The notes beneath the pieces were generated by a model. That model saw nothing but the letters and a program-made list of their open reading frames with translations. It searched no databases and was not told the origin of the DNA. From the NCBI GenBank assembly GCA_943788815.1, contig CALSRS010000001.1, forward strand, positions 1,983,501 to 2,047,500: a stretch of DNA of 64,000 nt, written 5' to 3'. Origin of the DNA: an uncultured Gammaproteobacteria bacterium. Its GTDB lineage: Bacteria > Pseudomonadota > Gammaproteobacteria > Eutrophobiales > Eutrophobiaceae. Of the stretch, positions 4,062 to 15,859 are shown piece by piece. The position numbers were made by a program, and so were the translations under genes. Every line of letters starts with the position of its first letter. Position 1 is the stretch's first letter.

Positions 4062-5915
4062 TTAATGATCTATTGCCTGCTCTATTCGAACGGCGGGTCC
4101 ATATCCTTCTGGTTCACGAATGCTATCCACCATGTCGCGTACTTTCTGGCTCGGTTCATCAAACAGGGGTGTTAACGCAAGGCATATTCCAAAATTCAGT
4201 AACATGCCAACCACGCCGATGCCCTGAGGGTTAATCCCTTGTTCAAAAATACCAAACGTCCACGGCGCCATACCAAAAGAAACACAAGCGACAATATAGG
4301 ATCCGGTAAAACCAATACCCACCAGCATTCCTACGACGGCGGGAATGGTGCCGACGCGCTTCGAAAACACGCCCATTATGAGGACCGGGAAGATGCTCGA
4401 CGCGGCCAGGCCGAAGGCAAAGGCGACTACCTGGGCAACATATCCAAACGGGTAAATACCAAACAGTCCTGCAATTACAACGGCAATACCAATCACGGCT
4501 CGACCCACCAGCAGGCGTTGCTTCTCTGTAGATTGGGGGTTGATGATTCGATAATAAATATCATGTCCAACGGCAGAGGATATCACTAGCAGCAGTCCAC
4601 TAGCGGTTGATAGGGCGGCCGCTAGACCACCTGCGGCAAGCAGCGCGATGATCCAGGAGGACAGTTCTGCCATCTCGGGCGTGGCCAGTACGGTGATGTC
4701 CTGGTCGGGTCCACTCAATCCCATGTTACGTAATACCTGTCGGCCATCCGTTCCGTTATTACCTGTACTGTCTATCCAGCGCTGGTGATCGCTTTGAATG
4801 TCCAGCATGGCTGCAGTCCCCAAAGACCCAGTGCGAAAAATTTCATTATCTTCACGATTAGAATACCGCACGACTCCATCACCATCATCGAGCCAGTAAA
4901 TCAGGCCGGTTTGTTCCCAATTATCGTACCACTCCGGCAGGGATTCTGTCGTTGCCCCATTGAGGCTCTCAATCATGAAATAACGGGCAAAGGCCGCGGT
5001 GGCAGGCGCTGTTAAATATAAAATTGAGATAAACAGCAAGGCCCACATGCCACTCCAACGGGCCGCGCGAACATTTTTGACGGTATAAAAGCGAACCAGT
5101 ACATGTGGAAGACCTGCGGTGCCGGCCATGAGGGCAAGGGTAACAAAAAAGACATTCACTTTGTCCCAACTCCCCACAAAGGTATCGGTATAACTCAAAA
5201 ATCCAAGATCTTGTTGGATCAGGTTTAAACGCTCCAGCAAGTAAACAGTCTGCCCGCCGGCAAATTCTGGTTTAAGTGTTGCACCCATGGCAATAGAAGG
5301 GACAGGTATCCCGGTCAATTTTATGGCAATGGCAATCGCCACGATTAAATAAGCCGTGATCAGTACCCAGTACTGGGCCACCTGTGTCCAGGTGATACTT
5401 TTCATTCCACCAAGGGTGGCATAGACAAACACGATCGCCATGCCAAATATGACACCCGTATTAATATCGACTTCCAAAAAGCGACTAAAGACAATTCCAA
5501 CGCCGCGCATTTGGCCTGCCACATAGATAAAACAGATGAACAGGGCGCAAATGACGGCAACCACCCGAGCCAGGTCTGATTCGAATCGCTGGCCGACAAA
5601 ATCAGGCATGGTGAATTGGCCAAATTTTCGTAAATAAGGAGCTAGCAGTAAGGCAAGCAAAACATATCCACCTGTCCATCCCATTAAATAGACCCCGCCA
5701 GCATAGCCCATAAATGAAATCAAACCCGCCATAGAAATAAATGATGAAGCGCTCATCCAGTCAGCGGCAGTGGCCATGCCATTTGCCATGGCGGGCACAC
5801 CCTGACCTGCTACATAAAACCCGCGAGTGTCACGGACCCGGGTTATCCAGGCGATAGCTAAGTAGAGTGTGAACGTGACGCCGACAAATATAAATGTCCA
5901 GGTTTTAGTATCCAT
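4062..5915 (-). CDS. sodium:solute symporter, VC_2705-type large subunit
   Basis: A 617-residue polytopic membrane protein of the SSS family. It starts with a transmembrane segment near 5-22, followed by RGFYVAGQGVPAMANGMATA, the family's early substrate/Na+ region. A long loop at about 320-410 sits between transmembrane helices, as in the VC_2705 subfamily, and a helix with AAGGLAAALSTASGLLL follows near 440. It imports a small organic acid or similar solute with Na+. The DUF4212 gene ends two bases before its start, so the pair is one operon and probably one transporter. It is the only complete secondary transporter in the window. The substrate is not readable. Confidence 0.88.
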   Translation of the reverse strand: MDTKTWTFIFVGVTFTLYLAIAWITRVRDTRGFYVAGQGVPAMANGMATAADWMSASSFISMAGLISFMGYAGGVYLMGWTGGYVLLALLLAPYLRKFGQFTMPDFVGQRFESDLARVVAVICALFICFIYVAGQMRGVGIVFSRFLEVDINTGVIFGMAIVFVYATLGGMKSITWTQVAQYWVLITAYLIVAIAIAIKLTGIPVPSIAMGATLKPEFAGGQTVYLLERLNLIQQDLGFLSYTDTFVGSWDKVNVFFVTLALMAGTAGLPHVLVRFYTVKNVRAARWSGMWALLFISILYLTAPATAAFARYFMIESLNGATTESLPEWYDNWEQTGLIYWLDDGDGVVRYSNREDNEIFRTGSLGTAAMLDIQSDHQRWIDSTGNNGTDGRQVLRNMGLSGPDQDITVLATPEMAELSSWIIALLAAGGLAAALSTASGLLLVISSAVGHDIYYRIINPQSTEKQRLLVGRAVIGIAVVIAGLFGIYPFGYVAQVVAFAFGLAASSIFPVLIMGVFSKRVGTIPAVVGMLVGIGFTGSYIVACVSFGMAPWTFGIFEQGINPQGIGVVGMLLNFGICLALTPLFDEPSQKVRDMVDSIREPEGYGPAVRIEQAIDH

Positions 5916-5917
5916 TG

Positions 5918-6265
5918 CTAACTAACTTTTCCCTTGTTTACACCATCAGAGTCAGCCTTTAAGGATTCCAAAAGTTTATGATGTCGGCGATCAAGTCGCT
6001 CCATAAAGATGCAATACATTAAAATGCACAGGACGAAAATCATGATGCTGCCCTGCTGAGCAAACCAGAATCCCAGTGGAAAGCCGGTAAAAGGAAGATA
6101 AAATTGATTGAGCCAATCTGCGAATAAGACACCGCAACCCAGTGATGCAAAGGCCCAGATAAACAACAGTCCTGCGATTAGGCGGAGGTTATCACGCCAA
6201 TATCTTTTTAATGCAGCTTGAACTTCAGGAGAATGATAATCGGGCTCAATGTTTTTATCGTTCAT
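5918..6265 (-). CDS. DUF4212 small subunit of the sodium/solute symporter
   Basis: A 115-residue protein with two transmembrane helices (about 30-50 and 70-95). The cytoplasmic N-terminus contains the DUF4212 pattern YWRDNLRLI. Proteins of this family always accompany VC_2705-type symporters, and here the gene is immediately upstream of the large subunit with a two-base gap. Its own start is at the head of the operon. Confidence 0.88.
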   Translation of the reverse strand: MNDKNIEPDYHSPEVQAALKRYWRDNLRLIAGLLFIWAFASLGCGVLFADWLNQFYLPFTGFPLGFWFAQQGSIMIFVLCILMYCIFMERLDRRHHKLLESLKADSDGVNKGKVS

Positions 6266-6399: not shown

Positions 6400-6855
6400 A
6401 TTTTTCAACTGCTGTTGATAGCGAGTTTGCACCGCTTCTCGAGCATTTTCCGAACTGACGGCCTGGCACTGGCTGTTAGCAGATCGGTCGTCAATTTTGT
6501 CTCGGTTCCTATCCAGGATCATGGTCTGTCTATCCAGGGTATTGATCCCGGTATAGATTTGTGACTCCCAGTTATAGCTATCAAATGTGACTTTCATCGG
6601 GTGATTAACGGTATCCACATCCATACGCCATGTGCCGGTTTCCCGGTTGGGCCGTAACACCATCGTGACATTCTCTTCACCACTGCGTTTTTGAAAGATC
6701 CAGTAATTCTCACTTTGAAACTGCATCGCCACTGCGTCCCATGAAGAAGGGCACTTCATGGCACTCACGTCCACATAATCATCCTTAGCTTCATTTTCTT
6801 GTGCCCAGATAAGTGTGACTTGTGACAAGAGTACGAGCAGTATCAGTGATTTCAT
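6397..6855 (-). CDS. small secreted protein of unknown function
   Basis: A 152-residue protein with a signal peptide (1-18, ending IWAQ). The mature part has two Cys (in MKCPSSW and NSQCQAV) that could form a disulfide, and alternating polar/hydrophobic residues suggesting beta strands. I recognise no family. It is on the same strand as the lectin-like gene upstream, with a hairpin-bearing gap between them (6868-6932), so co-transcription is uncertain. Confidence 0.6.
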   Translation of the reverse strand: MKSLILLVLLSQVTLIWAQENEAKDDYVDVSAMKCPSSWDAVAMQFQSENYWIFQKRSGEENVTMVLRPNRETGTWRMDVDTVNHPMKVTFDSYNWESQIYTGINTLDRQTMILDRNRDKIDDRSANSQCQAVSSENAREAVQTRYQQQLKN

Positions 6856-6867
6856 ATTTTTAATTAG

Positions 6868-6932
6868 GCTCAGAGTAAAAATTAAAGTTTATAAAACGGG
6901 TCGGAAAAATATTTCTCATATGATTCCGACCT
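6868..6932. repeat. hairpin arms of the dispersed family
   Basis: GGCTCAGAGTAAAA at about 6868 is followed by GGGTCGGAAAAATATTTCTC and ATTCCGACC (ends about 6932). GGGTCGGAA pairs with TTCCGACC. It lies between two minus-strand genes. Confidence 0.5.
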
Positions 6933-6946
6933 ATTTTTATTTTGGC

Positions 6947-7597
6947 TTACTGAGCGGCGAAGCAATATAACAACGCGTCCCCTCCGGAGCTTTGTAACTG
7001 TTCCTGACTGCAGCCTCGTGATGGGTGAGATGAGTTCCAGGAGGTTGTACCGCCACCGGAACGATCATGGTGACCAACCATGGCACTACCTGCGCTGCCG
7101 TTGGTCCAGTTACTGCAAGTGCGATCCTCTCCAGCTGGAAGTGCTCTGCCGTGTGAGTCAGAGCCGGTTAGTATGTCATGCCGATTAGGCTTATCGCCAC
7201 GGCCGTTGACGACGTTTCCGTTCTCGTCAATGGCGGTGTCTTTGTACAGGTAATTACGGTCGCGCTCGTTGTCGCCATGCAGATCAGCAACGTCAGGGGC
7301 TATCCGTACACCCTTGGCATTGTGCCAGGGTCCAGCGCCGATGCGGTCGCGGGCATTAACGGCATTTGCTCCCTGGGTACTAAGGTAGGCGCGCCATGTG
7401 TTGTTACCAGCACCGGCGGACTGCGCGAGACTCTGGCAATGCGCATCTGCTCCAGCCAGACCGCCCAGATTGGCACCATTGCCTATAGGCGTGCTGGTGA
7501 TAAAGAAGGTCATGGGCTCTTGATCCTGGGCAAGCGCCAGCTTAGTGCCTGCAAGTAATAGTGTGATGATTGCAAAAACGGTATACATCTTATTCAT
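6947..7597 (-). CDS. secreted lectin-like protein (endostatin / C-type lectin-like fold)
   Basis: A 216-residue protein with a signal peptide (1-23, ending ALAQ). The mature domain opens with MTFFITSTPIGNGANLGGLAGAD, then ADAHCQSLA and TWRAYLST. It continues with CSNWTNGSAG and ends with ALLYCFAAQ. This order (early Cys, TWRAYLS, CSNWT, final YCF) is typical of small bacterial domains of the collagen XVIII/endostatin-like or C-type-lectin fold, usually secreted. A binding role at the cell surface is inferred; no catalytic residues are evident. RBS GAGGAA lies before the ATG. Confidence 0.65.
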   Translation of the reverse strand: MNKMYTVFAIITLLLAGTKLALAQDQEPMTFFITSTPIGNGANLGGLAGADAHCQSLAQSAGAGNNTWRAYLSTQGANAVNARDRIGAGPWHNAKGVRIAPDVADLHGDNERDRNYLYKDTAIDENGNVVNGRGDKPNRHDILTGSDSHGRALPAGEDRTCSNWTNGSAGSAMVGHHDRSGGGTTSWNSSHPSRGCSQEQLQSSGGDALLYCFAAQ

Positions 7598-7876
7598 AAT
7601 TTTTTCCTCTTCTACTCGTAATTTTTATTAAAGACGACCTTGATAAATGGGGTCGCCTGAATTTCTTCTGACAGTCACAATAACACAAATCAATTATTGT
7701 ACTAAAGGGGTCGGTGGGGTCAAAAAGTCATCATTTTTGCGTTTTTGCCCGAACTGGAAGCGATGATTTCCCCGGTTTTTGATAAGTCATTACCTTTAAG
7801 TAGATTTTGCGGTAATGTATTAGAGAAGTATCTTTTTTCAATAGACAAATAATCATACCCGGGGGGTAAAGTCGAT

Positions 7877-9739
7877 ATGGACAAACCTGATAAGGATAAA
7901 TCTGGCAAGAGCAAACCTGAAGAGAATTCTGTTGATCGTCGAAGCTTTATAAAAGCCGCTGCTGCCAGTGGTGCGGCCCTGGCTGCGGGTGCACACTCCT
8001 TGAGTGCGCAGGTTAGCGGTGGGACAGCCGCTGGTGCTGCTGCGACCGAGGTAATAGAAATCGTCAGCGACAGGAAACACGGGTCCGATTTCATGATGGA
8101 CGTCTTGAAGCAAATGGACTTCGAGTTTATGACCATAAACACGCACTCTGACTCAGCCGGACTACAAGAATCTGTTATTAACTATATGGGGAATGTAAAC
8201 CCGGAGCTGATTACCGGCCTCCACGAAGAAGTATGTGTCGCTATGGCGCACGGCTATTACAAGATCGAGGGCAAGCCACTGGCGACATTGATATATGGGT
8301 CAGTCGGATTACAGCATGCCTCAATGGCCGTCTACAGCGCCTTTTGTGACCGGGTTCCGATCTTTATAATGCTCGGTAACCAGCGCCATAATCCCAACTC
8401 CCGAAGCGTCCAGGATGCCCCTGCAATGGTGCGTGATTTTACCAAGTGGGATGACTCGCCACTCTCACTTGAGCATTTTGCGCAGTCTGCCGTGCGTGCC
8501 TATTCGGTGGCAATGACCACGCCTACCATGCCGGTGGTGCTCTCGGTGGACAAAAAATTGCAGGAGATGATTATCCCCAAAGGGGAGAAGCTGCGAATAC
8601 CAAAATACACACCCAATACACCGCCAGCGGGTGACCCCAACGCCGTCAGGGAACTGGCGAAGATGCTAGTGGATGCGGAACTCCCCGTGCTGGGCGTGGA
8701 ACGGGCAGCGCGTTCACAAGCCGGCTTGGAATACATTATAGAACTGGCCGAGTTGCTGCAGGCCGGGGTGGTGGACACCATACAGCGGATGAATTTTCCT
8801 TCCCGGCATCCACTGTTGCAAGAACCCAGTATATTTGGCGAAGCCGACATGGTGTTGGCGCTGGAGATGCCGATGCTGTCTCATTCCAGACTCAAAGAGG
8901 GTGCGAAACTGGCCAGTATCAGCGGTTTTGATCTGTTTACCCGGAGTAATTACTGGCATTTCGGCGACTACCAGGAACCCGATTTTTCGATTGCCGCTGA
9001 TGCTGAGGCAACACTTCCATTACTTATCGAAGAGGTTAGGCAGCAGATGTCAAGGAGCAAACGATCTGCCGTTCGCGCGCGCGGTGCCAAGTTTGCCGAG
9101 ATCAACAAGCAGAACCGAGAGCGTGATAAGGCGTTTGCTGCCAATGGCTGGAACGATAGCCCGCTCAACACCGCACGCGTGGCTGCCGAGTTGTGGGAAC
9201 AGATCAAAAACAAGGACTGGTCGCTGGTTTCACGCAGTGACGGTATGAGCGACTGGGCATGGAAGCTCTGGGACTTTAACAAGTACTATCATCACATCGG
9301 TCAGTCCGGCTCGGTAGGCGTCGGTTATAGCAATCCCGCGTCGGTTGGTGCGGCATTGGCGAACCGCAAGCACGGGCGCCTGTCCATTAACCTGCAAAAC
9401 GACGGTGACTTTATGTTTCTGCCATCGACATTGTGGACGGCGGCGCATCATAAGATTCCTATGCTCACCGTCATGCACAACAACCGGGCCTATAACCAGG
9501 AAATCATGTTAATTTCTCGTATGGCCGCCTTGCGTGATCGGGATGTCTCCCGATGCACCATTGGTAGCGTCATCGATAATCCCAATATTGATTTTGCACA
9601 GATGGCCAGAAGTATGGGCTGGTACGCAGAGGGTCCTATTGAGCATCCATCGGAACTGGCGCCGGCGATGAAACGGGCCATTGCTGCAGTTGAAAGCGGT
9701 CAGCCAGCCTTGCTAGATACCGTCACACATCCGAACTAG
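7877..9739 (+). CDS. Tat-exported thiamine-diphosphate-dependent enzyme (acetolactate synthase-like)
   Basis: A 620-residue protein with a twin-arginine signal: VDRRSFIKAAAASG then a hydrophobic stretch ending LSAQ near residue 46. The rest follows the three-domain TPP enzyme plan. The N-terminal PYR domain has GLHEEVCVAMAHGYYK near 118, whose Glu should activate the cofactor. A middle domain follows. The C-terminal PP domain has NDGDFMFLPS then MHNNRAYNQE near 515-545, the Mg-TPP motif. Such enzymes decarboxylate or ligate 2-oxo acids and normally sit in the cytoplasm; folding with cofactor before Tat export would explain a periplasmic form. The cytochrome c gene starts 12 bases after its stop, which suggests electrons from a 2-oxo acid or aldehyde pass to that cytochrome. 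Substrate unknown. Confidence 0.85.
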   Translation: MDKPDKDKSGKSKPEENSVDRRSFIKAAAASGAALAAGAHSLSAQVSGGTAAGAAATEVIEIVSDRKHGSDFMMDVLKQMDFEFMTINTHSDSAGLQESVINYMGNVNPELITGLHEEVCVAMAHGYYKIEGKPLATLIYGSVGLQHASMAVYSAFCDRVPIFIMLGNQRHNPNSRSVQDAPAMVRDFTKWDDSPLSLEHFAQSAVRAYSVAMTTPTMPVVLSVDKKLQEMIIPKGEKLRIPKYTPNTPPAGDPNAVRELAKMLVDAELPVLGVERAARSQAGLEYIIELAELLQAGVVDTIQRMNFPSRHPLLQEPSIFGEADMVLALEMPMLSHSRLKEGAKLASISGFDLFTRSNYWHFGDYQEPDFSIAADAEATLPLLIEEVRQQMSRSKRSAVRARGAKFAEINKQNRERDKAFAANGWNDSPLNTARVAAELWEQIKNKDWSLVSRSDGMSDWAWKLWDFNKYYHHIGQSGSVGVGYSNPASVGAALANRKHGRLSINLQNDGDFMFLPSTLWTAAHHKIPMLTVMHNNRAYNQEIMLISRMAALRDRDVSRCTIGSVIDNPNIDFAQMARSMGWYAEGPIEHPSELAPAMKRAIAAVESGQPALLDTVTHPN

Positions 9740-9751
9740 GGAGGAATGATA

Positions 9752-10126
9752 ATGTACTTAATTAAAAAATCCCAGTTAGTCTGTAGTCGCATCATCATTG
9801 CCTTGATGTTTTTAGTTGGCGCGCAAAGCGTTCATGCGCAAACGACCGCAGAAGAAAGAGGCAAGCAGGATTTCGTCACTTATATGTGTTACGGCTGTCA
9901 TGGCTTTACGGGACAAGGCGGGCAAACCGATGTGGCACCAAGGATCAATGTCGATGTTCATACCGCTGAGTCAATGGCGGCCTACGCGCGCAACCCTGGT
10001 GGCAGGATGCCGCCGTATCATACCGAGGCTCAGATCCCTGATCAGGCCTTACGGGATATATACGCGTATTTGAAATCGCTTCCGCCATCACCTGCCTGGG
10101 AAGACATCCCACTTCTCAATGATTAA
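9752..10126 (+). CDS. small c-type cytochrome paired with the TPP enzyme
   Basis: A 124-residue monoheme cytochrome with a signal peptide ending VHAQ. The heme site CYGCH lies near residue 50 (MCYGCHGFTGQGG), and a likely Met ligand is in GGRMPPYH. I place the start at ATG 9752 rather than the ATG at 9746 because GGGAGG at 9739-9744 is then spaced by 7 bases. That RBS overlaps the stop of the TPP enzyme gene, so the two are tightly coupled. It is the probable electron acceptor of that enzyme in the periplasm (inference from gene order). Confidence 0.85.
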   Translation: MYLIKKSQLVCSRIIIALMFLVGAQSVHAQTTAEERGKQDFVTYMCYGCHGFTGQGGQTDVAPRINVDVHTAESMAAYARNPGGRMPPYHTEAQIPDQALRDIYAYLKSLPPSPAWEDIPLLND

Positions 10127-10136
10127 AATTTAAATT

Positions 10137-10200
10137 AAGGTGACAGTTAACTTAATTAGTTTATCTTTATAGTTGAAATAATTAAGTTAACTGTCACCTT
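10137..10200. terminator. perfect 22-bp inverted repeat, bidirectional terminator candidate
   Basis: AAGGTGACAGTTAACTTAAT (10137-10156, plus TA) is matched exactly by its reverse complement at 10179-10200, leaving a 20-base loop. It fills the gap between the convergent cytochrome (ends 10126) and LVIVD (ends 10208) genes. The stem is AT-rich with no U-tract of classic length, so it may be a mobile hairpin as well as, or instead of, a terminator. Confidence 0.75.
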
Positions 10201-10207
10201 ATTTCTT

Positions 10208-11830
10208 TCACTCTGAGCTTAAATTGACGATGTCCCGTGCGTAACCGGTGAGTCTGACAATATGTAGCCCACCACCGGGTCGATCCGTTCCGTAGATCAA
10301 GCCTCGATCATCCACCTCGACGTTGTTGATGACTCCTACTCGTTGACACGCGCTGGTTGGTGATTCGAACCCGAATTCGCCTCCTTCCCTGGTCTCTGCG
10401 TTTGAGCAAGTCGGGACCGTGTTCTCGTTTGGGGCAGGAATGAAATAGGCAAGCTCGTGTGGGGCGAAGGGATCGCGGATGTCCCAAACGCGGATGCCTG
10501 CGTTGAAGTAGGCGATGATGGCCAGTTTGCCGTAATAAGGTGGGTAGAACGATTCCGATGAAGAGTGCACTCCGTGCCGCCCGCCACGTGCGCAATAGTC
10601 ACCTTCTTGCACCCGGATAGTCGATAGCGGCCAGGGACTAATTTCATGGGTCACATCGACGATGAACGCCAGCTGTGGCGCCGAGCGTCCCTGCGTCAGC
10701 TCTTCGGGCGGGTAATTTGACGCGCAGTTGTTGGACCGCCCCGCCTCTGACGACACGAGTAGCAGATCTCGATTTCTCTTTAGAGGGTGTGTCTGGAATC
10801 CGGGTGTTGGTTGGTTGAAGATGGGAAACGCGGTGTGTCCACCCTGGTCGGGAGACATAACGATATGACTGACCATCGGGGCGAGCATTTCAGCCTCTGT
10901 AGGGGTGCGTGGGTTCTTGAATTCTGTCAGTAACTTCAGTCGATCGACGATCATGAGTATGCCGTTGCTGCCCGTGCCATGTGCCATGTAGATTCGGTTC
11001 TTCAGCCTGCCAGCAGAGATCGCACCGTGGAGGCCGACGCCCCCTTCAATGTGGCCGATGTAGCTGGTGGCACCAGGCTGTTGGCCTGGCATGCCGTAGT
11101 CACGTATATATTTGGGTCTGGCTGGGTCACTAAGATCGTAGATAATGAGATGGTTGCTGCCGGTCCAGTCATCATTGTTTCTACGCCCTGCCAAAAAAGC
11201 CATCCCTGTATCGCATTCCCACCAGTTTTTGTGCGTCCCTGCCAGGTCATCGACGACAGTGGTCAGTTGCGTTGGTTTGAGTGGATCCGTGACGTTCCAG
11301 ATCTCGTGTGCACTGCTCCCGTAAGATCGAAGTAAATACCATTCGCCGTCATCACCGCTTGGCAGGGTCGTACCACTACACACCTGCACCATCTGCGAGC
11401 CACCTTCACCGCGTCCGCTCCCGGTGGGAATATGTGCAAGATATTTAGTGTTTGCGGGATCAGTGACATCCACTATGGACGTCCCATTCTTTTCCATCTG
11501 TCCAGTCAGGGAATTCAACATGGGTTCCCGATTGTGGTGGCCGATGTATGCGATTTGGCGCCCGTCCTGATTAATGATGAGGGGTTGGTAGGCAGAGCGT
11601 CCCTGCAGATCGTTGTAGCCGACGATCTCCATGTTCCAAACTGACGAGACATCACTGGGCCCGGGTGGAGGCGGCTGTTCAGGTGGGGGCGGACCTCCGC
11701 CAGTCAGCGTGATGGAGGGAATATGCGGTCCGTTCGGCGGGTACTGCTGTGCGTCGGCTGGCGCAAGCAGCGCCGCAGCCAACAGGCAGATTATGAGCAA
11801 TTGGCTGTTATGTTTTGTACGAACGCGCAT
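10208..11830 (-). CDS. secreted LVIVD-repeat beta-propeller protein
   Basis: A 540-residue protein with a signal peptide (1-27, ending ADAQ). A proline-rich linker containing GGGPPPPEQPPPPGP lies near 44-58. The rest carries LVIVD-type repeats, seen as IVDVTDPANTKYLAHI, IYDLSDPARPKYIRDY and VWDIRDPFAPHELAYF, which build a beta-propeller. Several Cys in the C-terminal half probably form disulfides. LVIVD proteins are usually secreted and non-enzymatic or of unknown function. It converges on the TPP/cytochrome pair and shares its repeat type with the fusion protein at 27644. RBS GGAGAGAGG is clear. Role unknown; ligand binding or scaffolding is a guess. Confidence 0.8.
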   Translation of the reverse strand: MRVRTKHNSQLLIICLLAAALLAPADAQQYPPNGPHIPSITLTGGGPPPPEQPPPPGPSDVSSVWNMEIVGYNDLQGRSAYQPLIINQDGRQIAYIGHHNREPMLNSLTGQMEKNGTSIVDVTDPANTKYLAHIPTGSGRGEGGSQMVQVCSGTTLPSGDDGEWYLLRSYGSSAHEIWNVTDPLKPTQLTTVVDDLAGTHKNWWECDTGMAFLAGRRNNDDWTGSNHLIIYDLSDPARPKYIRDYGMPGQQPGATSYIGHIEGGVGLHGAISAGRLKNRIYMAHGTGSNGILMIVDRLKLLTEFKNPRTPTEAEMLAPMVSHIVMSPDQGGHTAFPIFNQPTPGFQTHPLKRNRDLLLVSSEAGRSNNCASNYPPEELTQGRSAPQLAFIVDVTHEISPWPLSTIRVQEGDYCARGGRHGVHSSSESFYPPYYGKLAIIAYFNAGIRVWDIRDPFAPHELAYFIPAPNENTVPTCSNAETREGGEFGFESPTSACQRVGVINNVEVDDRGLIYGTDRPGGGLHIVRLTGYARDIVNLSSE

Positions 11831-13953: not shown

Positions 13954-14538
13954 CTACGGTTTGTCGTGTGACCAGGGATCACCGGGTTGCTCGATGACGC
14001 CAGAGGTCCATGGGTTAATGCCATAATTCGCCGCCTGGGGCATCGTCACAGCCCGTAGCGTCGTCGCGTTGGCAACGAAATCCTCTGGCACAATGTCATT
14101 TAAATTTAGCAGCAACGCCACAAGACTATAGATCTCGTCGGGTTCAAGGGATTGTGGCGCGTAATAGGGCATAGAGCGGTGAATATAATCGTACAAGGTC
14201 GTCGTACAGCAATACCGGTTTGCGATATTCGGGTTTATACCAGTGTCGCCGGGATTTTCACTCGCGGTCGGTCCATGACAATTTGTGCATTTCGCATCAT
14301 AGATTTTTCGGCCTTGGGCGACTGTCCCTGAGCCAGCCGGGAGTCCCGTGCCATCGGGTTCGATGTCAATATCCCAGGCTGCTATTTCAGAATCTGATGC
14401 GTCCCTTCCAACAGGTTGATTTACAAGATTAGATCCGTCCTGCGCGGCAACTTCAACAGCGCTTGCGATGAATAAGATTATCCCAGCGAGTGCAAACAAC
14501 ATTGTCATAATTGATCGTTTTTGATTAAGACCAGACAT
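13954..14538 (-). CDS. c-type cytochrome, SoxD-like subunit (pair 1)
   Basis: A 194-residue monoheme cytochrome. Signal peptide to about residue 33 (ending VAAQ), then WDIDIEPDGTGLPAGSG, the same lead-in as the SoxD-like protein of pair 2. The heme site CTNCHGP lies near 82-88 and a likely Met ligand in HRSMPYYAP. It overlaps the 3' end of the molybdoenzyme gene by 14 bases, so the two are translationally coupled and should form one complex in the periplasm. An adjacent Cys-Cys (RYCCTTT) is unlike pair 2. It should take electrons from the molybdenum subunit. No other sox genes are nearby. Confidence 0.82.
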   Translation of the reverse strand: MSGLNQKRSIMTMLFALAGIILFIASAVEVAAQDGSNLVNQPVGRDASDSEIAAWDIDIEPDGTGLPAGSGTVAQGRKIYDAKCTNCHGPTASENPGDTGINPNIANRYCCTTTLYDYIHRSMPYYAPQSLEPDEIYSLVALLLNLNDIVPEDFVANATTLRAVTMPQAANYGINPWTSGVIEQPGDPWSHDKP

Positions 14539-15859
14539 TGGTGACCCTCCCGCTTGAGTGGACTTGCCAGGTCTCTATACCGTTATAGGATGCACCCTGT
14601 GGGGCGTATTTCGCGAGCCATTCATGTGTTGGTTGTTTGAACCCTTGGTCATCCCAGGCCCGACTGGTCAATTTCACCGTTTCACCGTTCCAGGTCCACG
14701 GGAAGGTGAACATGGTCGCCATTTTCGGTAACACAGGGCCATGCAAGCGCGCAGTGTGCCATGTCGCACCACTATCGGTACTGATCTCAACACCGGCGAT
14801 CTTGCCATAACCAGAATAGGCCATGCCGCGTAGCTCATTCGCTGGTGGGGTTTGGGCCAAATTCATTCCACCTGAGGGTGTGATGATGTGTGAACGCACA
14901 CCACATTGGACCGAATACTGAAGTGATCTACCGTCATCCGTATGATCGGCGTAGCGAGACGTTTCTTCGCGCATTTGGAACATGCTGCTTCCAAACTGTA
15001 TGCGCCGGATCCATTTATTGCTGGTATTGCCCTCGTAACCAGGGAGTAAAAGACGTACCGGATAACCGTTCTCAGGTCGCACTGGCTCGCCGTTTTGCCC
15101 GTACATCAAGTAGGCATCGTTCCAGAGCTTGTCGATGTCGATGCTGCGCGCCAGGCCCGCGCCGTCGTAAGATTCCACCAGTGCCCAGGTTGATTCTGGC
15201 TTCACATTCACCAGTTCCATGACTGTGCGAAACGGTACTCCCACCCATTCACATGCGCTTGAACGGCCTAGGGAATCAAGGATCGTCGAGTTCTCTTTCA
15301 CTTTGCCTCCGCTAGGGGCTTCCCCATTGCCCTGGCACTCCCAATAAAAAAAGTGCTTTTCGGCACCCAGGCGCATGAGGTCCTCAAGCGTGAACACCAT
15401 TGGGCGTTCAACCATGCCATGGACGAGCAGACGGTATTTCGACGGATCGATGAGTGGGATGCCTGAATGATGTCGTTCGAAGCAGAGATCAGATGGCGTT
15501 ACAGTGCCGATAATCTTGGACCAGTCGGTACTCGATCCTGTGGCATATATCCGCGAGCCACTGATTTCAATCGTACGTTTGAGATCAACAAATGGGGATC
15601 TTCGTCCTACCTCGGTCGGCGCGGCGCCAGCCTGTGACCACGGCGTATCGGTATTGTTGTTTACATAATTATCGGGGGTCGGTTGTGGCATGAGATTTTG
15701 ATGGCTGTATACCTGACCGAGGGCTGCGCGACTTGCTGCCCAGCCCACAACTGCACTACCTCCGCCGAGTAACAGGCGACGACTAATCTTGAATTTCTTC
15801 TCGTCAGAAGCACGAAAAAAATCTAAATCCGAATCTTTAGTCCCTGAATTTTTAGCCAC
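14525..15859 (-). CDS. Tat-exported sulfite-oxidase-family molybdoenzyme, SoxC-like (pair 1)
   Basis: A 444-residue protein with a twin-arginine signal near residues 24-50 (KISRRLLLGGGSAVVGWAAS). The Mo-pterin domain has FYWECQGNGEAPSG near 172-185, whose Cys should ligand molybdenum. RPENGYPVRLLLPGYEGN near 260 and the C-terminal dimerisation domain (ISTDSGATWHTARLHGP) follow. The family oxidises sulfite or sulfane sulfur, but distant members act on other substrates. The exact SoxC pattern EC(S/A)GNS is altered to ECQGNG, unlike pair 2, which hints at a different substrate. It heads an operon with the cytochrome gene. RBS GGAGGAATT lies before the ATG. It diverges from the exported amidohydrolase gene. 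Confidence 0.85.
   Translation of the reverse strand: MAKNSGTKDSDLDFFRASDEKKFKISRRLLLGGGSAVVGWAASRAALGQVYSHQNLMPQPTPDNYVNNNTDTPWSQAGAAPTEVGRRSPFVDLKRTIEISGSRIYATGSSTDWSKIIGTVTPSDLCFERHHSGIPLIDPSKYRLLVHGMVERPMVFTLEDLMRLGAEKHFFYWECQGNGEAPSGGKVKENSTILDSLGRSSACEWVGVPFRTVMELVNVKPESTWALVESYDGAGLARSIDIDKLWNDAYLMYGQNGEPVRPENGYPVRLLLPGYEGNTSNKWIRRIQFGSSMFQMREETSRYADHTDDGRSLQYSVQCGVRSHIITPSGGMNLAQTPPANELRGMAYSGYGKIAGVEISTDSGATWHTARLHGPVLPKMATMFTFPWTWNGETVKLTSRAWDDQGFKQPTHEWLAKYAPQGASYNGIETWQVHSSGRVTNVWS

Follow-up and report, generated by a model that had tools for sequence, protein, structure and literature searches.

Can a thiamine diphosphate (ThDP) enzyme work outside the inner membrane and hand its electrons to a cytochrome c of its own? 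The question is raised by two adjacent genes in a 64,000-nucleotide stretch of DNA from an uncultured Gammaproteobacteria bacterium (GenBank assembly GCA_943788815.1, contig CALSRS010000001.1, positions 1,983,501 to 2,047,500), hereafter the window, whose own numbering is used below. The first gene encodes a ThDP-dependent enzyme with a twin-arginine translocation (Tat) signal and the second a small monohaem cytochrome c, a combination that recurs throughout a well-supported clade of relatives. To our knowledge, ThDP enzymes have so far been placed in the cytoplasm or in organelles, and among the open-access papers listed by our searches, judged by titles and the starts of abstracts and with preprints and most subscription journals outside the search, none describes a ThDP enzyme of the periplasm paired with a cytochrome. 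Sequence comparisons lead us to propose that the pair is probably a periplasmic, benzoylformate-decarboxylase-like enzyme that oxidizes a 2-oxo acid, with decarboxylation, or an aldehyde and delivers the electrons to a dedicated cytochrome c. The locus comprises:

7877–9739, plus strand: ThDP-dependent enzyme, predicted to be Tat-exported, benzoylformate-decarboxylase-like, 620 amino acids (Pfam, PDB sequence matches, structural model)
7877–8008, plus strand: twin-arginine signal peptide DRRSFIKAAAASGAALAAGAHSLSA (pattern, Pfam; cleavage after Ala44 is an estimate)
8078–8398, plus strand: TPP_enzyme_N domain, residues 68–174 (Pfam)
8225–8227, plus strand: Glu117, the cofactor-activating glutamate, preceded by His116 (column conservation)
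9248–9718, plus strand: TPP_enzyme_C domain, residues 458–614 (Pfam)
9401–9484, plus strand: metal/diphosphate motif Asp509-Gly510 ... Asn535-Asn536 (column conservation)
9739–9744, plus strand: GGGAGG ribosome-binding site of the cytochrome gene (sequence)
9746–10126, plus strand: monohaem cytochrome c, 126 residues, starting at 9746 or, more likely, 9752 (Pfam, conservation in the partner set, profile search of the same genome)
9887–9901, plus strand: CYGCH haem attachment motif, Cys48, Cys51 and His52 (C..CH in 97 of 97 partner cytochromes, for which it was also a selection criterion)
10007–10009, plus strand: Met88 in RMPPY, probably the axial ligand of the haem (Met conserved in all 97 partner cytochromes)
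10133–10204, no strand assigned: inverted repeat with 34-nucleotide arms and a 4-nucleotide loop, just 3′ of the cytochrome stop

The enzyme, which starts MDKPDKDKSGKSKPEENSVDRRSFIKAAAASGAALAAGAHSLSAQ, matches the Pfam thiamine pyrophosphate (TPP) models TPP_enzyme_N (E 5.8e-12) and TPP_enzyme_C (E 2.1e-22) above their cut-offs, and both are matched in 47 of 47 members at E 0.01; TPP_enzyme_M gives a weak match (18 of 30.4 bits). Glu117 is conserved in 104 of the 105 members of the Tat clade described below and in all twelve non-Tat members, and D509, G510, N535 and N536 are each conserved in 105/105 and 12/12, respectively. The ThDP and metal motifs are thus intact as far as sequence can tell, and the enzyme presumably loads ThDP. 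Its N-terminus carries a twin-arginine motif with a hydrophobic region, VDRRSFIKAAAASGAALAAG, in which the twin arginines are residues 21 and 22 and are followed by the hydrophobic stretch and an A-x-A-like end. Pfam TAT_signal scores 19.6 bits on this N-terminus (E 8.2e-4), below its 22.7 cut-off. TatC is encoded in the same genome (228 bits), and we infer that Tat exports the enzyme.

The ribosome-binding site of the cytochrome gene begins on the last base of the enzyme's TAG stop (9737–9739); the first ATG lies at 9746, and an in-frame second ATG at 9752 provides the more usual spacing. The product matches Pfam Cytochrome_CBB3 (3.2e-10) and, judged by sequence, has the features of a class I monohaem cytochrome c, namely CxxCH, an axial Met and an N-terminal signal. 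Arg82 and Met88 do not vary across the set of 97 partner cytochromes; a hydrophobic N-terminal stretch is found in 95 of them, and a C-terminal I-P-L-L tail is frequent (75–80% per position). Since the flanking genes at 6947–7597 and 10208–11830 lie on the opposite strand, the enzyme and the cytochrome look like a unit of their own, of which the inverted repeat is a likely boundary; its arms are 88% complementary and their sequence is unique in the window (up to 3 mismatches allowed). Sequence, Pfam and column conservation thus bear out the Tat signal, the intact TPP motifs and the coupling of ribosome-binding site and stop that an earlier sequence-only reading of this locus had described.

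The same reading had called the enzyme acetolactate-synthase-like, a label that gives way to benzoylformate decarboxylase by sequence, the two being about equally close by fold. The four best PDB sequence matches are benzoylformate decarboxylases, with the caveat that one of the structures, 4q9d, bears that name in the sequence listing and is titled a putative ThDP enzyme in the structure entry. An AlphaFold2 model built from a 47-sequence alignment (predicted local distance difference test 84.6, predicted template modelling score 0.83) is consistent with the three-domain fold of the decarboxylase/acetolactate-synthase ThDP superfamily. Residues 66–620 of this model align to 4q9d with Z 36.9 and a root-mean-square deviation of 2.5 over 491 residues (structure comparison, VIA), to 4k9q with Z 36.0 and to the acetohydroxyacid synthase 6wo1 with Z 35.9, so that fold alone barely separates benzoylformate decarboxylase from acetohydroxyacid synthase. 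On the enzyme, all 25 NCBIfam models listed score below their cut-offs. The benzoylformate decarboxylase equivalog PRK07092 scores 140.4 of the 493 bits it demands, and the identities of acetolactate synthase (TIGR00118, 86.5 of 538 bits) and pyruvate oxidase (NF006377, 55.5 of 742 bits) were rejected. S91, which we take to be the equivalent of Ser26 of benzoylformate decarboxylase, is present in 98 of the 105 clade members and H140, the equivalent of His70 by sequence alignment to that enzyme, in 101; we assume active-site roles for both Ser26 and His70.

The pairing of enzyme and cytochrome is conserved far beyond the window. Scanning named genomes of bacteria and archaea yielded at least 374 relatives, the best 80 of which are mostly from Acidobacteriota with some from Alpha-, Beta- and Gammaproteobacteria. 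A profile of the cytochrome found the same protein directly downstream in 73 of these 80 loci, two of the seven misses being at a contig end. As a control, only 5 of 356 other open reading frames (ORFs) of at least 300 amino acids in the same loci precede that cytochrome; three of these are further Tat-TPP genes present in the tree (L031_5594, L054_5283 and L054_10455), which reduces the background to 2/353, and the other two (L029 and L032) match seeds of pyrroloquinoline quinone (PQQ) dehydrogenases. Under a plain ORF rule, 57 of 79 loci have a C..CH ORF immediately before or after the enzyme gene (L023 has no closed ORF), a count below that of the profile because the rule missed genes with overlong or overlapping ORFs. 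Beside the TPP enzyme and the cytochrome, no cluster of neighbouring genes reaches more than 8 of the 80 loci, and there is no other widely conserved neighbour; neighbour clustering yields no fixed catabolic pathway around the pair. A PQQ dehydrogenase, a TcuA-like flavoprotein and a flavin mononucleotide (FMN) hydroxyacid dehydrogenase each occur near the pair in a minority of loci. A single candidate for a fused TPP-cytochrome protein (L100) was rejected, since its frame differs from that of the TPP ORF and it represents an overlapping reading frame.

For phylogeny we used 129 TPP rows, less four duplicates and two short rows (L016 and L119), which left 123 in a FastTree tree computed with long-branch warnings; nine of the 13 plasmid records with a match were taken in (H4, H5, H9 and H12 were left out). 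Clade counts set aside L104_11744, L019 and four far Tat-TPP rows (L008_15045, L009, L018 and L123). The Tat signal was called by pattern, as a twin-Arg or Lys-Arg motif with a hydrophobic stretch, and the cytochrome neighbour by profile and C..CH within 900 bases. A single clade (local support 98) holds 105 of the 123 homologues, from Acidobacteriota and Proteobacteria, and a single branch (support 96) holds twelve sisters without a Tat signal. Within the clade, the signal is present in 102 of the 103 members with a readable N-terminus and a cytochrome of the same subfamily comes next in 97 of the 103 with readable downstream DNA. The 105 members break down into 94 with both traits, 6 with the signal and no cytochrome, 2 with the signal and cut off downstream, 2 with the cytochrome and cut off upstream, and 1 (L032) with the cytochrome, in which a Tat-like N-terminus lies just upstream in another frame. 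The condition under which the sequence-only reading would have been refuted, namely homologues mostly devoid of Tat signal and cytochrome neighbour, is contradicted within the clade, where nearly all members have both; the twelve more distant homologues lack both. Pairs also recur two or three times within one locus (L031 and L054); one Alphaproteobacterial locus (L054:5283–12852) contains three Tat-TPP/cytochrome pairs in tandem. The predicted exported enzyme of Caballeronia has a c-type cytochrome 8 bases downstream, and Bradyrhizobium is a further carrier of the enzyme.

Even sampling indicates rarity of the enzyme. Matches at E 1e-100 or better occur in 7 of 53 genomes of the window's own family; in its class, with at most three candidates scored per genome, only its own genome of 369 matches at 1e-80, and in its phylum its own genome and one non-Tat match were found among 299 at 1e-120. 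In the phylum of genome G698, 12 of 297 genomes have a match.

We examined whole genomes for members of the cytochrome subfamily away from the enzyme. Searching the window's genome with the cytochrome profile gives two strong matches, at 117.8 and 110 bits, the third reaching just 32 bits, and both strong matches adjoin Tat-TPP paralogues, one being the pair in the window and the other lying at L008:9428–9802 beside L008:9814–11754. Sixteen other genomes were examined, all picked for carrying the enzyme and five of them for exceptions without the neighbour. In these, 23 of the 25 cytochrome matches of at least 100 bits sit within 1 kb downstream of a Tat-TPP gene, compared with 4 of the 13 weaker matches. 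A strong match free-standing from any TPP gene occurs in G993 (L187:4420–4746, minus strand), where two of the three TPP copies have no neighbouring cytochrome, and a second occurs in G1002, where its contig has no TPP match at 1e-60. Six weak or non-Tat-like TPP matches (G704:C133, G697:C69, G1004:C121, G997:C4, G1001:C203 and G1002:C308) were left off the resulting list of 34 TPP genes, and none of them shares a contig with a listed cytochrome. Across these genomes, the cytochrome is by all appearances the dedicated partner of the Tat-TPP enzyme. Sequence distances between the enzymes also correlate with those between their cytochromes (r 0.60, maximum of 500 permutations 0.22).

The sisters without a Tat signal offer a comparison from the cytoplasmic side. 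No partner cytochrome was found beside any of the twelve. An aldehyde dehydrogenase lies within 2 kb of 7 of the 12, versus 2 of the 105 Tat-clade members (Fisher p 5e-7, the rows not being independent). In Salipiger abyssi two aldehyde dehydrogenases flank the enzyme and the locus also has an alpha-hydroxy acid oxidase, and Sulfitobacter dubius and Acidovorax carolinensis are further named sisters with an aldehyde dehydrogenase nearby; in L138 and L140 the non-Tat gene has an annotated alpha-hydroxy acid oxidase in its neighbourhood. Judged by these neighbourhoods, the exchange of aldehyde dehydrogenase for cytochrome points to oxidation, in indirect support of the catalytic role proposed here.

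How such a pair might work can be outlined from known ThDP chemistry. The enzyme would fold and take up ThDP and its metal ion in the cytoplasm, and would then be exported in folded form by Tat. In the periplasm it would attack a 2-oxo acid, with release of CO2, or an aldehyde, which would leave a ThDP-bound carbanion/enamine. The dedicated monohaem cytochrome c, directly or via a flavin, would withdraw two electrons from this intermediate, one at a time, so that the product would be a carboxylic acid and the electrons would travel on to a terminal oxidase. The pair would thereby differ from the cytoplasmic sisters, whose neighbourhoods suggest release of an aldehyde for an aldehyde dehydrogenase dependent on nicotinamide adenine dinucleotide (NAD): in the cytoplasm the aldehyde formed by decarboxylation would be oxidized by an NAD-type enzyme, and in the periplasm, where NAD is not available, the cytochrome would take the electrons. 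ThDP carbanions can be oxidized by one-electron acceptors such as ferricyanide, the basis of the classical E1 assay of 2-oxo acid dehydrogenases, and by analogy the cytochrome c may be the natural counterpart of ferricyanide. The model requires TatC and terminal oxidases, and the window's genome has three haem-copper oxidase matches in addition to TatC.

Several observations weigh against this interpretation. Six clade members with room downstream have no neighbouring cytochrome, and 24 of the 34 listed TPP genes in the sixteen genomes have an adjacent one, some of the others being at a contig end. The related loci are not independent, as the FastTree tree implies no more than 3 changes of the signal and 6 of the cytochrome, and an independent-pairs test has 3 pairs, too few, of which 1 goes in the same direction and 2 show no difference (p 1). 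The permutation test on the correlated enzyme and cytochrome distances leaves shared ancestry in. Pfam TAT_signal matches just 14 of 47 members at E 0.01, with at least six rows of that set starting past the signal. At position 140, where most members have His, the window protein has Tyr, as do three others. The non-Tat set is small (12) and was chosen by search score, five of its loci having flanks of 1.5 kb or less, and Phyllobacterium zundukense has an NAD(P)-dependent oxidoreductase in place of the aldehyde dehydrogenase, which departs from the partner-exchange pattern.

The main rival, which we regard as unlikely although clearly ahead of the other alternatives, has the enzyme act in the periplasm as a non-oxidative decarboxylase, lyase or carboligase that yields only an aldehyde, and has the cytochrome serve another periplasmic dehydrogenase, a PQQ or molybdenum enzyme, which oxidizes this product. 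Benzoylformate decarboxylases, the closest solved relatives, are non-oxidative, and PQQ-dehydrogenase-like genes lie within 8 kb of 12 of the 105 Tat-clade members and a SoxC-like molybdoenzyme within the same distance of 3, the window included (the others are L011 and L060). These figures fall well short of a widely conserved second dehydrogenase, whereas the cytochrome is nearly always directly behind the TPP gene, and the three SoxC-like enzymes bring a cytochrome of their own.

Two further explanations dispense with either the reaction between the proteins or the export of the enzyme. It seems improbable that the cytochrome carries electrons from or to another route and that the two genes lie together through co-transfer or co-regulation of periplasmic proteins that do not react directly. 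Adjacency alone is never proof of a physical partner, and the six members lacking the neighbour would fit this scenario; on the other hand, strong members of the cytochrome subfamily occur almost only behind these genes in the 17 genomes searched, and pairs are repeated within single loci. That the Tat-like N-terminus does not export and the enzyme stays in the cytoplasm is very improbable: the signal calls do rely on a pattern and weak Pfam scores, but this N-terminus is kept in nearly every readable clade member and is absent from the twelve sisters, and nearly all partner cytochromes have a hydrophobic N-terminal stretch and would acquire their haem in the periplasm, where cytochrome c haem attachment takes place. 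We favour an exported enzyme whose ThDP intermediate would be oxidized by its cytochrome.

More distant Tat-TPP enzymes form a separate group. Two such genes occur in the window's own genome (L008:15042–16937 and L009:8696–10603, both on the minus strand; 22–23% identity), near genes named by eye as TonB-dependent-receptor-like and PQQ-dehydrogenase-like, and no partner-type cytochrome lies directly behind either. In a relative from another genome (L018), a C..CH protein that the partner profile does not recognize follows with a 4-base overlap, and in L123 a C..CH protein is 261 bases away. ThDP enzymes may thus have gained export and a paired cytochrome on more than one occasion, in a part of the tree that is weak.

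Other genes near the pair deserve mention. Adjoining it in the window, at 6947–7597 on the minus strand, is a secreted DUF1554/LenF-like protein (weak matches), a look-alike of which, recognized by eye, lies 3′ of the paralogous pair (L013:3710–4342 and L014:3751–4377). At 4062–6265 (minus strand) a relative of acetate symporters, a sodium/solute symporter of the VC_2705 type, is encoded together with its small subunit; as a candidate link, this transporter could import the carboxylic acid product of the enzyme. At 13954–15859 (minus strand) the window encodes the SoxC-like molybdenum enzyme, with a twin-arginine signal, and its own cytochrome c; such a pair directly adjoins the TPP-cytochrome pair in L011, from the same genus, and in L060. 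Sulfonate cleavage by an Xsc-like enzyme that feeds the nearby SoxC-like sulfite dehydrogenase was rejected, as the SoxC-like gene is near in so few members and the enzyme reaches 67 of the 676 bits of the Xsc model. In L045 a lactate-dehydrogenase-like FMN enzyme with its own twin-arginine signal (6658–7857, plus strand) lies directly upstream of the Tat-TPP gene and is a possible source of a 2-oxo acid for it.

The pair suggests an undescribed bacterial way of oxidizing organic acids outside the inner membrane. With a Tat-exported ThDP enzyme that has a cytochrome c of its own, periplasmic respiration would acquire a further cofactor class. Such an enzyme would also supply its family with a function, the relatives bearing no annotation more specific than 'thiamine pyrophosphate-binding' or '-requiring' protein, and would provide a compact two-gene unit for asking whether haem oxidizes a ThDP intermediate directly. 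More tentatively, and with slightly less than even confidence, we envisage a respiratory enzyme class, recurrent in Acidobacteriota and scattered in Proteobacteria, in which a periplasmic ThDP carbanion would be oxidized one electron at a time by a dedicated haem c, with no part played by NAD, lipoamide, ferredoxin or quinone; cells could then draw electrons from 2-oxo acids or aldehydes that stay outside the cytoplasm.

Several known systems come close to the pair. Benzoylformate decarboxylase (PDB 4k9q, 4q9d and 1bfd) shares with the enzyme the three-domain ThDP fold, the catalytic Glu and the DG...NN motif at 18–24% identity in structural alignments; unlike it, the enzyme has a Tat signal and a cytochrome c partner instead of an aldehyde dehydrogenase. 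Some neighbourhoods of the cytoplasmic sisters resemble the order of the mandelate pathway, which runs from hydroxyacid oxidase through decarboxylase to aldehyde dehydrogenase. PRK08327, a 'thiamine pyrophosphate-requiring protein' with no named function, is the best NCBIfam match of the enzyme (210.5 bits, cut-off 456) and also of the cytoplasmic sisters L138 and L140; the enzyme differs from it by its score under the cut-off, its Tat signal and its cytochrome. PoxB and pyruvate:ferredoxin oxidoreductase are ThDP enzymes that oxidize the decarboxylated intermediate and pass the electrons to quinone or iron-sulfur centres; they act on the cytoplasmic side, with acceptors other than cytochrome c. 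SorAB-type sulfite dehydrogenase and PQQ alcohol dehydrogenase are periplasmic and use cytochrome c as acceptor, with molybdenum or PQQ catalysis. D-malate:cytochrome c oxidoreductase likewise oxidizes its substrate outside the inner membrane and passes electrons to cytochrome c (PMC12294151); its catalysis differs in not depending on ThDP, and the word 'thiamine' is absent from the text of that paper. The system proposed here would resemble SorAB, PQQ alcohol dehydrogenase and D-malate:cytochrome c oxidoreductase in its cytochrome c acceptor, and would differ from all three by its use of ThDP.

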